Below are positions 29,668-48,392 of a stretch of DNA of 64,000 nucleotides, in pieces (the first letter of the stretch is position 1; every line of letters starts with the position of its first letter). The stretch lies in assembly GCF_011752975.1 (NCBI RefSeq), contig NZ_VWWP01000009.1, positions 1 to 64,000 on the forward strand, given 5' to 3'. The notes beneath the pieces were generated by a model, which was not told the origin of the DNA, made no database searches, and saw nothing but the letters and a program-made list of their open reading frames with translations. A program made the position numbers and the translations under genes. This stretch comes from Chryseobacterium sp. Tr-659 (GTDB taxonomy: Bacteria; Bacteroidota; Bacteroidia; Flavobacteriales; Weeksellaceae).

Positions 29668-29741
29668 CTCCTCCTGCTGGGCTCGAACCAGCGACCCTCT
29701 GATTAACAGTCAGATGCTCTAACCAACTGAGCTAAGGAGGA
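29668..29741 (-). tRNA. tRNA-Asn (GTT), copy 1
   Basis: A 74-base cloverleaf on the minus strand: acceptor TCCTCCT pairs with AGGAGGA, the D arm is GCTC/GAGC, the anticodon loop is CTGTTAA with anticodon GTT (Asn), and the T arm is GCTGG-TTCGAGC-CCAGC. The discriminator is G, as expected for Asn, and CCA is not encoded. A promoter with TATATTFG-type -7 box lies just upstream (29764-29771, TATATTTG on the minus strand) and a terminator follows. A second identical copy is at 38147-38220. Confidence 0.97.
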
Positions 29742-38146: not shown

Positions 38147-38220
38147 CTCCTCCTGCTGGGCTCGAACCAGCGACCCTCTGATTAACAGTCAGATGCTCTA
38201 ACCAACTGAGCTAAGGAGGA
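38147..38220 (-). tRNA. tRNA-Asn (GTT), copy 2
   Basis: Identical in sequence over all 74 bases to copy 1 (29668-29741), with anticodon GTT and discriminator G. The flanking blocks are also shared: the terminator on one side and, on the other, about 30 bases including the TATATTTG -7 box. Homology ends just past that box, so the duplicated unit is a complete expression cassette minus the -33 region. Confidence 0.97.
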
Positions 38221-45486: not shown

Positions 45487-46710
45487 ATGTATTCAATTAT
45501 AGATATAGAAAGTAATGGTGCAGGTTATAGGAATGAATGCATTATAGATATTGCCATCTACAGGTATGATGGCCAGAAGATTACTGATCAGTTCATTTCT
45601 CTGGTAAATCCTGAAGGTGATATTACTCCTTTTGTTCAGAAGCTGACCAGTATTACCCCAAAAATGGTCAAAACAGCTCCTAAATTTCATGAAATTGCTA
45701 AAAGAGTGATCGAAATTACTCAAAATACAACGTTGGTAGGACATAACATCGACTTTGATTACAGAATGCTTCGCCAATCTTTTAAAAGACTCGGTTATGA
45801 CTTTAAAATCAATACTTTAGATACTATTCCGTTGGCTAAAAAGCTGATTCCCGATGAAGTAAGCTATTCATTAGGGAAACTAGTGAAATCATTGGGTATT
45901 CCTCTCACCAATCATCACAGGGCTGAAGGAGACGCAAGAGCAACCCTGGAACTTTTCAGATTATTGATTTCGAAAGATGTTGAAAATGAAATTATTCAGA
46001 AACAGCATGAGGAATCCAATGCCAAGACATATATCAATAAGATCAAAGAGTTAACACAGGATCTTCCTAATGATAAAGGTTTTGTTTATTTTCAGGATGA
46101 AGCAGGTAGAATCATATTCTCAGATTATGTTCAGGATATCAATAAGTTTTCGAAAAAGGTTTTCAATTCCAAATCAAAAAGATGGGAACAGATCCAGAAA
46201 GGAGTAGAGCAGATCAATTTCGAACTTACAGGAACTGATATTATTGCAAAATTGATTCTGAACTCCAAGAATATCAAAAAGAAAGAAATTTTACCGTTCG
46301 GGCTTTATTTCAGGAATAATAAATATGTTGTTGAAAAAAATAAACTGAATAAAACGGAAAAGCCTGTCTTAAAATTCAGATCTTTTACACAGGGAACAAA
46401 AGCGGTTCAGTTTATTGGTTCTCAGGAAGAATTTAATGACTTTGAAGTACTGAAACAAAAAATAGAATTCAGAAAAAGGAATGAATTGTGGCTGGGGCCA
46501 GGAAGGAAATTAGGTGAAAGACTATTTTTAATCATTGAAAACGGGAAGGTGGTATCCTTCGGTTTTTATGAATTGTTCACGCAGATTCAGACATTGAGTA
46601 AGCTGGCCAAATTAAAAATTGACCTTCCATTGTCTTCTACAGATTTAAACAATGAATTGCAGCTGGCACTGCTTCGAGGTGATTTTGAAACCCTGCCTCT
46701 CCCCAAATAA
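45487..46710 (+). CDS. DEDDh exonuclease fused to a degenerate GIY-YIG-like domain
   Basis: A 407-residue protein. Residues 1-165 form a DnaQ-like 3'-5' exonuclease: D6 and E8 in IIDIESNG, D89 in VGHNIDFDYRML, and H144 with D149 in HHRAEGDARATLELF. After a helical linker, residues about 190-275 resemble the N-terminus of UvrC/Cho: LPNDKGFVYFQDEAGRIIF, then a helix pair and TGTDIIAKLILNSKNIKKK. The GIY and YIG signatures are changed to FVY and FSD and no catalytic Arg could be placed, so the domain is probably inactive or only binds DNA. The rest is unrecognised. A DNA repair or processing role is likely. Confidence 0.8.
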   Translation: MYSIIDIESNGAGYRNECIIDIAIYRYDGQKITDQFISLVNPEGDITPFVQKLTSITPKMVKTAPKFHEIAKRVIEITQNTTLVGHNIDFDYRMLRQSFKRLGYDFKINTLDTIPLAKKLIPDEVSYSLGKLVKSLGIPLTNHHRAEGDARATLELFRLLISKDVENEIIQKQHEESNAKTYINKIKELTQDLPNDKGFVYFQDEAGRIIFSDYVQDINKFSKKVFNSKSKRWEQIQKGVEQINFELTGTDIIAKLILNSKNIKKKEILPFGLYFRNNKYVVEKNKLNKTEKPVLKFRSFTQGTKAVQFIGSQEEFNDFEVLKQKIEFRKRNELWLGPGRKLGERLFLIIENGKVVSFGFYELFTQIQTLSKLAKLKIDLPLSSTDLNNELQLALLRGDFETLPLPK

Positions 46711-46790
46711 TAGGGGGATTTAAGCTTTAAAGTTTTTATCAGCAAGGAGATGCTTTTCAAATCAATTTTCTCAAAGTAAAAAATAAATAG

Positions 46791-46798
46791 TATTTTTG
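46791..46798 (+). promoter_or_regulatory. -7 box upstream of the lysA leader
   Basis: TATTTTTG matches TAnnTTTG. It lies 20 bases before the mini-ORF at 46818 and about 170 bases before lysA. Confidence 0.5.
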
Positions 46799-46817
46799 CA
46801 AAAAATAAAAAGAAGCA

Positions 46818-46889
46818 ATGCAAAATTTTAAACAAAATAAAACTGGTAAAAAGGGAGCTGTAAAGTTCTCTAAGGTTTGGAATATTTAA
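46818..46889 (+). CDS. Lysine-rich leader mini-ORF before lysA
   Basis: A 23-codon ORF (ATG to TAA) in the 260-base gap between the exonuclease gene and lysA, with six lysine codons (positions 5, 8, 11, 12, 16, 19), 26% of the product. A -7 box precedes it, and a terminator-like hairpin follows before lysA. The layout is that of a transcription attenuator that would sense charged tRNA-Lys. The product may have no function of its own. It could instead be a small independent gene. Confidence 0.4.
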   Translation: MQNFKQNKTGKKGAVKFSKVWNI

Positions 46890-46921
46890 AAGACTTGTCT
46901 TGCATAAAAAATAATCAATGT

Positions 46922-46954
46922 GGCAGGCTCTTTTTCGAAGAATCTGCCTTTTTT
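46922..46954 (+). terminator. Terminator or attenuator hairpin before lysA
   Basis: GGCAG (46922-46926) pairs with CTGCC (46944-46948), extended by TCTT/AAGA around TTTCG, followed by six Ts (49-54 of the 469xx block). It lies 32 bases after the mini-ORF stop and 17 bases before the lysA ATG, so transcription stopping here would keep lysA off. Confidence 0.6.
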
Positions 46955-46970
46955 ATGTTAAAATGAAATT

Positions 46971-48173
46971 ATGAATTCAAAAGAATTATTAAAGATTGCC
47001 CATGAGTTTGGCACCCCGGTGTATGTTTATGATGCTGAATCCATCAAAGTTCAATACGAAAAACTTACATCTTCTTTTTTAAAACACACGAAGTTTTTCT
47101 ACGCAGCGAAGGCGTTGACGAATATCAACATCCTGAAGTATGTCAAGAAACTCGGTGCATCTTTGGATTGTGTATCTATTAACGAGGTTAAACTTGGATT
47201 AAAAGCAGGATTTCCGAAAGAAAAAATATTGTTTACTCCAAATTGTGTTGACTTGGCTGAAATAGAAGAAGCAATGACTTTCGGAGTTCATATTAACATT
47301 GATAACATTTCTATCCTCGAGCAATTTGGGAACAAATACGGAAATTCTTATCCTATTTTTGTGAGAATCAACCCGCATATCTTTGCCGGAGGAAATTATA
47401 AAATTTCAACAGGCCATATCGATAGTAAATTCGGGATCTCCATTCACCAGCTTCGCCATATCGAAAGAGTAATGAAGAGTACAAATCTTAATGTTGAAGG
47501 CCTTCATATGCACACAGGAAGTGAGATCAAAGATCCGGAAGTATTTCTTCAGGCTTTGGATATCATGCTTGAGCTTTCTGAGCATTTCCCTAATCTTAAA
47601 TATCTGGATATGGGTAGCGGTTTCAAAATTCCTTACCAGGACAGCGAAGAGGAAACAGACGTTAGAACATTAGGTAAAAAAGTAGAGAAAGTTTTAGGTG
47701 AATTCTTAAAAACAACAGGAAGAAAATTTGAACTATGGTTTGAGCCGGGAAAATTCCTCGTAGGAAAAAGCGGCTATCTGTTGGTGAAGGCTAATGTGAT
47801 CAAGCAGACTACAGCTACAGTTTTTGTTGGCGTGAACTCTGGTTTCAATCACCTGATCCGTCCGATGTTCTACGATTCTTACCATGCTATTGAAAACCTA
47901 TCCAATCCAAAAGGAGCAGAAAGGATTTATACAGTAGTAGGAAACATCTGTGAAACCGATACGTTTGCATGGGATAGAAAATTACATGAAGTAAGAGAAG
48001 GTGATATCCTTGCTTTCCATAACGCAGGAGCTTACGGTTTTGAAATGAGCTCAAACTTTAATTCAAGATTAAAGCCGGCAGAAGTTTTATTCTTGGACGG
48101 AAAAGCTCATCTGATCCGTAAAAGAGATGAGTTTGAAGACTTGCTGAGAAATCAGATCGAAGTAGTAATCTAA
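46971..48173 (+). CDS. lysA: Diaminopimelate decarboxylase
   Basis: A 400-residue fold-type III PLP enzyme making lysine from meso-diaminopimelate. Motifs: K47 in FFYAAKALTN (PLP Schiff base), MHTGSEIKD (near 180), the glycine-rich phosphate loop GSGFKIPY, EPGKFLVGKSG, and the substrate-binding C-E-x-x-D in ICETDTFAW (near 321). The start and length are typical. The gene is preceded by the lysine-rich leader mini-ORF and hairpin, and followed by a terminator. Lysine-responsive control is plausible but unproven. Confidence 0.95.
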   Translation: MNSKELLKIAHEFGTPVYVYDAESIKVQYEKLTSSFLKHTKFFYAAKALTNINILKYVKKLGASLDCVSINEVKLGLKAGFPKEKILFTPNCVDLAEIEEAMTFGVHINIDNISILEQFGNKYGNSYPIFVRINPHIFAGGNYKISTGHIDSKFGISIHQLRHIERVMKSTNLNVEGLHMHTGSEIKDPEVFLQALDIMLELSEHFPNLKYLDMGSGFKIPYQDSEEETDVRTLGKKVEKVLGEFLKTTGRKFELWFEPGKFLVGKSGYLLVKANVIKQTTATVFVGVNSGFNHLIRPMFYDSYHAIENLSNPKGAERIYTVVGNICETDTFAWDRKLHEVREGDILAFHNAGAYGFEMSSNFNSRLKPAEVLFLDGKAHLIRKRDEFEDLLRNQIEVVI

Positions 48174-48192: not shown

Positions 48193-48220
48193 AGCAGCCA
48201 CCTATCTGGGTGGCTGTTTT
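48193..48220 (+). terminator. Terminator of lysA
   Basis: AGCCACC and GGTGGCT pair around a short loop, followed by TTTTG. Confidence 0.75.
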
Positions 48221-48392
48221 GTTTTAGAAATATAATATTATAGATTTTTGGCTGAGATTTCAGAATAAAAAATTACGAAACTTTAATAGATGAAGAACAC
48301 AGAAGTTCCAATTTAATTGGTTAAATTTGATAAAGGCAGTTCACCTCTGCTTCTATTTCTCACAAGAAAATAACTACCAAAAAATATTAATT

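Follow-up and report, generated by a model that had tools for sequence, protein, structure and literature searches.

A probable lysine-codon transcription attenuator preceding lysA in Chryseobacterium sp. Tr-659 and part of the Weeksellaceae

Positions 46791-46954 of the DNA analysed here (the window, a 64,000-nt stretch of Chryseobacterium sp. Tr-659) very probably constitute a classical ribosome-mediated transcription attenuator, which reads the charging of Lys-tRNA and controls lysA. The comparison of related genomes points to a coding leader ORF, conserved Lys codons, two mutually exclusive helices, a narrow spacing, a telling promoter placement and a linkage to lysA. The preliminary description of the region had proposed attenuation by ribosome stalling at Lys codons, and this reading is supported by the comparative sequence data on Lys codons, antiterminator and promoter placement.

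In the proposed mechanism every step is predicted, from the start site and the translation of the leader through stalling to termination or readthrough and the response to lysine. RNA polymerase would start at the TAnnTTTG promoter, about 5-8 nt downstream of the -7 box at 46791-46798, and would proceed into the Lys-rich leader ORF. With plentiful Lys-tRNA the ribosome would reach the stop codon and cover segment 2, segments 3 and 4 would pair, and transcription would stop before lysA. With scarce Lys-tRNA the ribosome would stall with a Lys codon, K19 at the latest, in its A site; segment 2 would then lie just past the leading edge of the stalled ribosome and could pair with the emerging segment 3, whereupon the terminator would come too late and lysA would be transcribed. 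If the leader is not translated at all, segment 1 would pair with segment 2 and the terminator would form.

Layout of the leader in the window

Direct reading of the leader stretch (TAGTATTTTTGC), with TATTTTTG as the promoter-like -7 box, confirmed the order given in the preliminary description, namely a box, an ORF of 23 codons of which six encode Lys, a U-tailed hairpin and lysA (Table 1). The hairpin had rightly been placed just before lysA, but its distance, given as 17 bases, was measured as 16 nt from the U-tract to the ATG at 46971. The terminator hairpin as a whole covers 46922-46948 and the U-tract 46949-46954. Segment 2 overlaps the leader stop codon, and segment 3 serves both the terminator, as its 5' arm (46922-46933), and the antiterminator, as its 3' strand, two uses which are mutually exclusive. 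The pairs between segments 1 and 2 lie within 46815-46823 with 46895-46903 and 46826-46832 with 46885-46891. It is possible that the hairpin inside the ORF acts as a pause hairpin.

Table 1. Coordinates of the leader elements and of lysA in the window
Feature	Position	Strand	Basis or remark
-7 promoter box TATTTTTG (TAnnTTTG)	46791..46798	+	direct reading; kept before the ORF in relatives
Segment 1, start-codon region; predicted partner of segment 2 without leader translation	46815..46832	+	folding, alignment
Leader peptide ORF MQNFKQNKTGKKGAVKFSKVWNI and stop; 23 aa, six Lys codons (5, 8, 11, 12, 16, 19)	46818..46889	+	
ORF-internal hairpin, 8 bp, GUAA loop	46852..46871	+	97.3% of cells paired
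Last conserved Lys codon, K19 (AAG in 64/64)	46872..46874	+	proposed deciding stall site
Segment 2, antiterminator 5' strand AAAAGACUUGUC (46888-46899) and inner GCAU (46902-46905)	46888..46905	+	pairs with segment 3
Segment 3, AUGU and GGCAGGCUCUUUU	46918..46934	+	folding, alignments
Segment 4, terminator 3' arm (46937-46948) and U-tract (46949-46954)	46937..46954	+	
lysA, diaminopimelate decarboxylase; proposed regulated gene	46971..48173	+	TIGR01048

The identity of LysA is given by NCBIfam TIGR01048 (382.7 bits against a cut-off of 297.9), and the protein is 99% identical to LysA of named Chryseobacterium species. The gene upstream of the leader encodes a DnaQ/DEDD-type exonuclease. Downstream of lysA, on the + strand, lies a hairpin that runs into a T-rich tail (48194-48225, GCCACC..GGGTGGC followed by TGTTTTGTTTT), and lysA may therefore be a single-gene unit.

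Taken singly, the features of the leader are only suggestive, and it is their conservation that lifts the leader above chance. TAnnTTTG occurs 82 times in the window where 83 occurrences are expected; six or more Lys residues in 22 codons have P = 0.007 at the Lys frequency of the 37 long ORFs of the window; and the leader fold reached a z of -1.98, with 7 of 200 shuffles as good. The leader hairpin, whose stem has a C-A mismatch, was not listed by a standard terminator scan of the window. At the gathering threshold, an Rfam scan of the whole window gave only two tRNAs and a DUF805b motif and nothing at the leader, while a scan of 46600-47100 at E up to 5 gave sub-threshold matches of E 0.83 or worse; neither the lysine (L-box) riboswitch nor the T-box was listed in either scan. 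The DUF805b match lies at 692-724 on the + strand (38.4 bits, gathering 35.6). The two tRNA genes, on the - strand at 29668-29741 and 38147-38220, are identical, 8.5 kb apart and score 70.6 bits each, and from the anticodon loop CUGUUAA we read the anticodon GUU (Asn) for both. A search of the genome itself for a second leader copy returned one match only (DNA at E<=0.001, peptide at E<=1), and further DNA matches to the leader were short and weak.

Conservation of the leader ORF and its linkage to lysA

The leader ORF of class A, the kind found in the window, bears the signature of a translated sequence. For 64 class A ORFs, Fitch parsimony on the lysA tree gave 29 changes at first, 33 at second and 106 at third codon positions; L148 and a locus whose lysA match was short are left out of this count. 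L148 has an in-frame 6-nt insertion in the ORF. Within the same 64 ORFs K5, K11, K12 and K19 are invariant, codon 8 encodes K in 49, Q in 13 and R in 2, and codon 16 encodes K in 45 and R in 19. The class A search pattern, which matched 166 loci with 107 distinct leaders, partly fixes codons 10-23, so that invariance there is partly by construction; the identical residues are conserved among 65 leader-bearing named loci that were aligned without that pattern. L034, which has a TGA stop, and L005, with a 1-nt loss, fail the pattern.

Diverged leaders, here called class B, were found in genera g7, g11, g24, g26 and g27 (these and g9 and g22 below are labels of the genome set, not taxon names). 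Sixty additional lysA loci of the family had been taken to cover genera rather than at random; six of them are leaderless Chryseobacterium loci, and 13 of the other 54 have, as judged by eye, a Lys-rich ORF and then a terminator in front of lysA. Eight more class B loci came from a degenerate DNA pattern for KGKKxFxK run on 256 family genomes, which gave many unrelated matches, in many genomes about as many among those listed as the reversed control; eight matches of the FFSK type were followed among those listed. The total is 21 loci with 19 distinct peptides, for example MKVQKSIKKGASKGKKFFSKANSVD. In the 16 distinct peptides of 25 aa only Met1, K8, K13, G14, K15, K16 and K20 are invariant, where 7 of the 16 come only from pattern-picked loci (L296-L303), for which the pattern fixes K13, G14, K15, K16, F18 and K20, not K8. 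The same lysines are present in the ten class B loci with a 25-aa peptide that were fetched by lysA alone and that hold nine distinct peptides. Conservation of the Lys codons in relatives, which the preliminary description had put forward as a check, was thus observed in both classes, in 64/64 class A ORFs for the four positions above and in 16/16 class B peptides for five lysines, partly fixed by the patterns. Beyond Lys and GKK/FSK the two classes share little, and the RNA sequence of the leader is strongly diverged between them while the Lys codons stay.

Class A also conserves G10, G13, F17, V20, W21 and N22, which counts against a pure codon-reading leader insofar as such a leader does not need residues other than Lys to be fixed. 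This nearly complete fixation of the C-terminal half, V20, W21 and N22 included, is what an arrest peptide would predict, in which the nascent chain together with free lysine or a related amine, and not the charging of Lys-tRNA, sets the terminator. Known arrest peptides of this kind are TnaC with tryptophan and SpeFL with ornithine. We regard this as improbable here, since the C-terminal VWN is absent from all 19 distinct class B peptides, and the amino acids of codons 10-23 in class A are partly fixed by the search pattern. Moreover, the 12 nt of codons 19-22 (AAGGUUUGGAAU) show no change in the 64 class A ORFs, third positions included, although AAA, AAC and the remaining Val codons would have passed the pattern, which indicates a constraint on the RNA. 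The helix of alignment columns 43-47/77-81, with 99.8% of cells paired, takes in the first part of AAGGUUUGGAAU, and RNA structure can thus explain part of its conservation. A combined arrangement, a two-input switch in which the Lys codons read charging and the class A GKKG...FSKVWN peptide is also an arrest peptide for lysine or an amine of the pathway, is unlikely as well; if true, such a leader would integrate charging with a metabolite signal and split diaminopimelate between the cell wall and protein synthesis.

Most class A leaders contain GGA AAA AAG (46845-46854), a possible slippery heptamer directly 5' of the internal hairpin. The heptamer is unconserved, as the window has GGT AAA AAG and some relatives AAG AAG. 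A programmed frameshift at A AAA AAG was dropped as a candidate, as K11 is AAG in 8/64 ORFs and codon 10 is not GGA in 15/64.

With regard to distribution, the 191-nt leader was found full-length or nearly so in 78 of 98 genomes of the genus by count of the listed matches, the Tr-659 genome included, and the remaining 20 gave short weak matches or none. By alignment, 65 of 80 named Chryseobacterium lysA loci have the leader and 15 do not; the automated count is 64 because a TAA or TAG stop was required and L034 ends in TGA. A six-frame search with the leader peptide matched 147 of 296 family genomes at E<=1e-6 (123 of the genus of the window, 23 of g9 and one of g7), and the other 18 peptide matches among the family genomes had E above 0.1. 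When 296 genomes of the order were searched with a 19-aa peptide, a search that would miss diverged class B leaders, 24 matched, all of them in the family of the window (Weeksellaceae), and inspection by eye of 20 lysA loci sampled from the order's other families showed no such leader. Class B, order-level and promoter-only loci were all recognised by eye.

Wherever the leader was followed into its surroundings it led to lysA. Class A copies found by leader sequence lie directly before lysA in 20/20 cases from three genera, and the lysA start follows the ORF by 79-84 nt in 83 of 84 loci from the leader queries (the genomes overlap), the 84th, L005, reading into lysA by eye. All eight class B copies followed from the DNA pattern precede lysA. 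At some class A loci the exonuclease gene is not adjacent to the leader, and 0.6-1.4 kb of other sequence lies between the two. The leader of L005 is 98% identical, and its ORF is broken by the loss of one G in a run of Gs. As the genome is listed at 75% completeness, this 1-nt loss is likely to be a sequencing error.

TAnnTTTG, described as the sigma-A box of flavobacteria in the part of PMC9723704 consulted, precedes the leader ORF in 107/107 distinct class A and 21/21 class B leaders, and between leader ORF and lysA it is found in none of the 107 and none of the 21. The 15 leaderless named loci (L061, L076, L084-L086, L088, L090, L091, L094, L097-L100, L102 and L105) all have the box 42-52 nt before the lysA ATG. 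The box standing only before the ORF, together with lysA having its own box when the leader is missing, makes a position upstream of the terminator the likeliest for the lysA promoter of leader-bearing genomes, and the terminator must consequently be passed. This agrees with the preliminary description, in which the hairpin has to be bypassed and a start of lysA downstream of the hairpin would have counted against attenuation; as far as the TAnnTTTG box is concerned, no such start is indicated. The leaderless loci would seem to reflect a transition, in either direction, between attenuation and plain transcription. In one locus of genus g22 (L200), the last 200 nt before lysA have a promoter-like TTATTTTTGA box and a terminator-like hairpin (GCAGGCTCC..GGATCCTGC) with no evident leader ORF between them, perhaps a remnant.

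Own promoter box, coding signature, terminator and strong conservation could also be those of an independent small gene, whether for a 23-aa protein or for a small RNA that ends at its own terminator, with lysA expressed by plain readthrough. We rejected this on the linkage to lysA and the promoter placement, and consider it very unlikely: the copies precede lysA in all the samples given above (20/20, 83/84 and one by eye, 8/8), no other TAnnTTTG is available to lysA in leader-bearing loci while it is present in 15/15 leaderless named ones, and the two classes have little in common beyond Lys and GKK/FSK. Furthermore, six Chryseobacterium genomes that are leaderless at lysA (L211-L216) have no match to the leader peptide anywhere in the genome.

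Exclusive helices and the predicted position of the ribosome

In class A (83 sequences) the 16 pairs of the antiterminator, formed by segments 2 and 3, are paired in 91.2% of cells, against 34-56% in slid controls, while the terminator stem is paired in 99.8% and the 1:2 fold, which joins the ORF to segment 2, in 95.9%. Covariation within class A alone is not significant, with 2 two-sided pairs, a number reached by 177/500 shuffles. A linked change is nevertheless seen between segment 2 and segment 3: C at column 97 goes with G at column 133 in 12/12 loci, G at column 97 goes with G at 133 in 6/51, two loci being left unscored. About seven changes of column 97 are counted along the lysA tree.

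Covariation becomes informative only when class B is added to class A. L019 and L113, two leaders which the terminator pattern had missed, were added later. The joint alignment has 39 sequences, 38 of them distinct. Here the six pairs of the antiterminator core are paired in 91.6% of cells against 24.7-51.1% in slid controls, with two-sided changes in 3/6 pairs, and the terminator is paired in 91.8% against 29.7-48.7%, with two-sided changes in 3/8 pairs. For cells paired, two-sided cells and covariation score, 0/500 shuffles reached either helix; the number of pairs with a two-sided change was reached by 35/500 shuffles for the antiterminator and 40/500 for the terminator, and the number of pair types by 42/500 and 14/500, respectively. 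The relatedness of the sequences inflates the shuffle tests, and the weight therefore rests on the slid controls and on the two-sided events, at least four of which, read from the joint alignment, are separate for the antiterminator (the class split, L113, L225 and L296). The competing antiterminator pairing that the preliminary description had suggested looking for is accordingly present across both classes, with two-sided changes in the joint alignment, though not significantly so in class A taken alone.

The extended conserved fold of the leader would also suit a metabolite riboswitch, for lysine or of a new class, that uses the terminator and has the ORF as a by-product, but this is highly improbable given that no Rfam family reaches threshold on the leader (best sub-threshold E 0.83), that the RNA diverges between the classes with the Lys codons retained, and that the codon-position bias and the in-frame insertion of L148 argue for a translated ORF.

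The spacing between Lys codons and helices fits the proposed Lys-tRNA attenuator. The distance to the core of segment 2, measured from base 1 of the last conserved Lys codon, is 16-18 nt in class A (98 of 107 leaders scored, the other nine being left unscored by the spacing pattern) and 16-20 nt in 21/21 class B leaders, 17 of them at 19 nt; the last conserved Lys of L193 and L206 was picked by our own choice. In L193 and L235 the class B ORF is six codons longer and segment 2 lies inside it, at 16 nt. With the leading edge of a ribosome at about 12-15 nt, segment 2 should be just free when the last Lys codon is in the A site and covered when the ribosome is at the stop codon.

Folding limited by the ribosome is consistent with such a switch. 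When the ribosome is placed at the last Lys and transcription has not yet reached the 3' arm of the terminator, at least five 2:3 pairs form in 107/107 class A and 21/21 class B leaders, a level that shuffles reach at a rate of 0.48 and 0.58, respectively, so that only the mean number of pairs supports the 2:3 pairing; this mean, with segment 2 including the spacer, is 11.4 in class A and 8.0 in class B, against 4.5 and 5.0 in shuffles. Shuffles were mononucleotide both here and in the segment pairing test. A ribosome placed at the stop codon leaves the terminator able to fold, which it does in 107/107 and 21/21. When the whole transcript is folded and segment 2 is left free, the terminator remains the most stable structure in 90/107 class A and 20/21 class B leaders, and the decision of the switch must therefore be kinetic. 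A kinetic decision is also what is generally held for trp attenuation.

Comparison with known attenuators and lysine regulators

The reaction encoded by lysA is the lysine-specific step after diaminopimelate, the precursor of the cell wall. Diaminopimelate must reach the cell wall whatever the lysine level, which would explain why lysA is the controlled step.

The lysine (L-box) riboswitch also controls lysine genes, but there the RNA itself senses free lysine, and the leader described here has no match to it in Rfam. This riboswitch is named in the part of PMC1262725 consulted, where no conserved RNA structure is reported before lysine operons in Actinobacteria. In the openly available literature searched, no lysine leader-peptide attenuator was found described; the word 'lysine' does not occur in the accessible text of PMC4833913, nor 'lysine' or 'Bacteroid' in that of PMC2965389.

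For the Bacteroidota, the accessible part of PMC7366714 notes short ORFs in Bacteroides that resemble leader peptides, and in that of PMC9723704 attenuation by leader peptides is reported to be strongly indicated upstream of amino-acid biosynthesis operons in Flavobacterium psychrophilum, which belongs to the same phylum and order as the present host; neither 'lysA' nor 'lysine' occurs in the main text of the latter. The preliminary description had held that attenuation of lysine genes by leader peptides is rarely described in Bacteroidota. This stands for lysine, a case we did not find described in the sources covered, but attenuation of amino-acid operons had already been proposed for F. psychrophilum (PMC9723704, as far as its text was available), which makes the setting in this phylum less surprising than was stated. 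If our reading is correct, ribosome-mediated attenuation would extend to lysine, in a phylum where, judging from these partial sources, such control has so far only been suggested.

The element occurs in part of the Weeksellaceae and is searchable in their genomes. Its two sequence classes follow one grammar of codons and pairing, which makes them a natural test case for the constraints that an attenuator keeps.

The closest known systems are the trp/his-type attenuators of Proteobacteria, represented by trpL, hisL, thrL, leuL, ilvL and pheL. In common with these, the lysA leader has a short ORF rich in codons for the product, segments that exchange partners, a terminator before the gene and a predicted kinetic competition, the principle being stated in the consulted part of PMC1183508. 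It differs in having Lys codons, a host from the Bacteroidota, a TAnnTTTG box and a lysA that apparently stands alone, and its Lys codons are spread along the peptide (e.g. K..K....K.KK...K) rather than gathered in one run.
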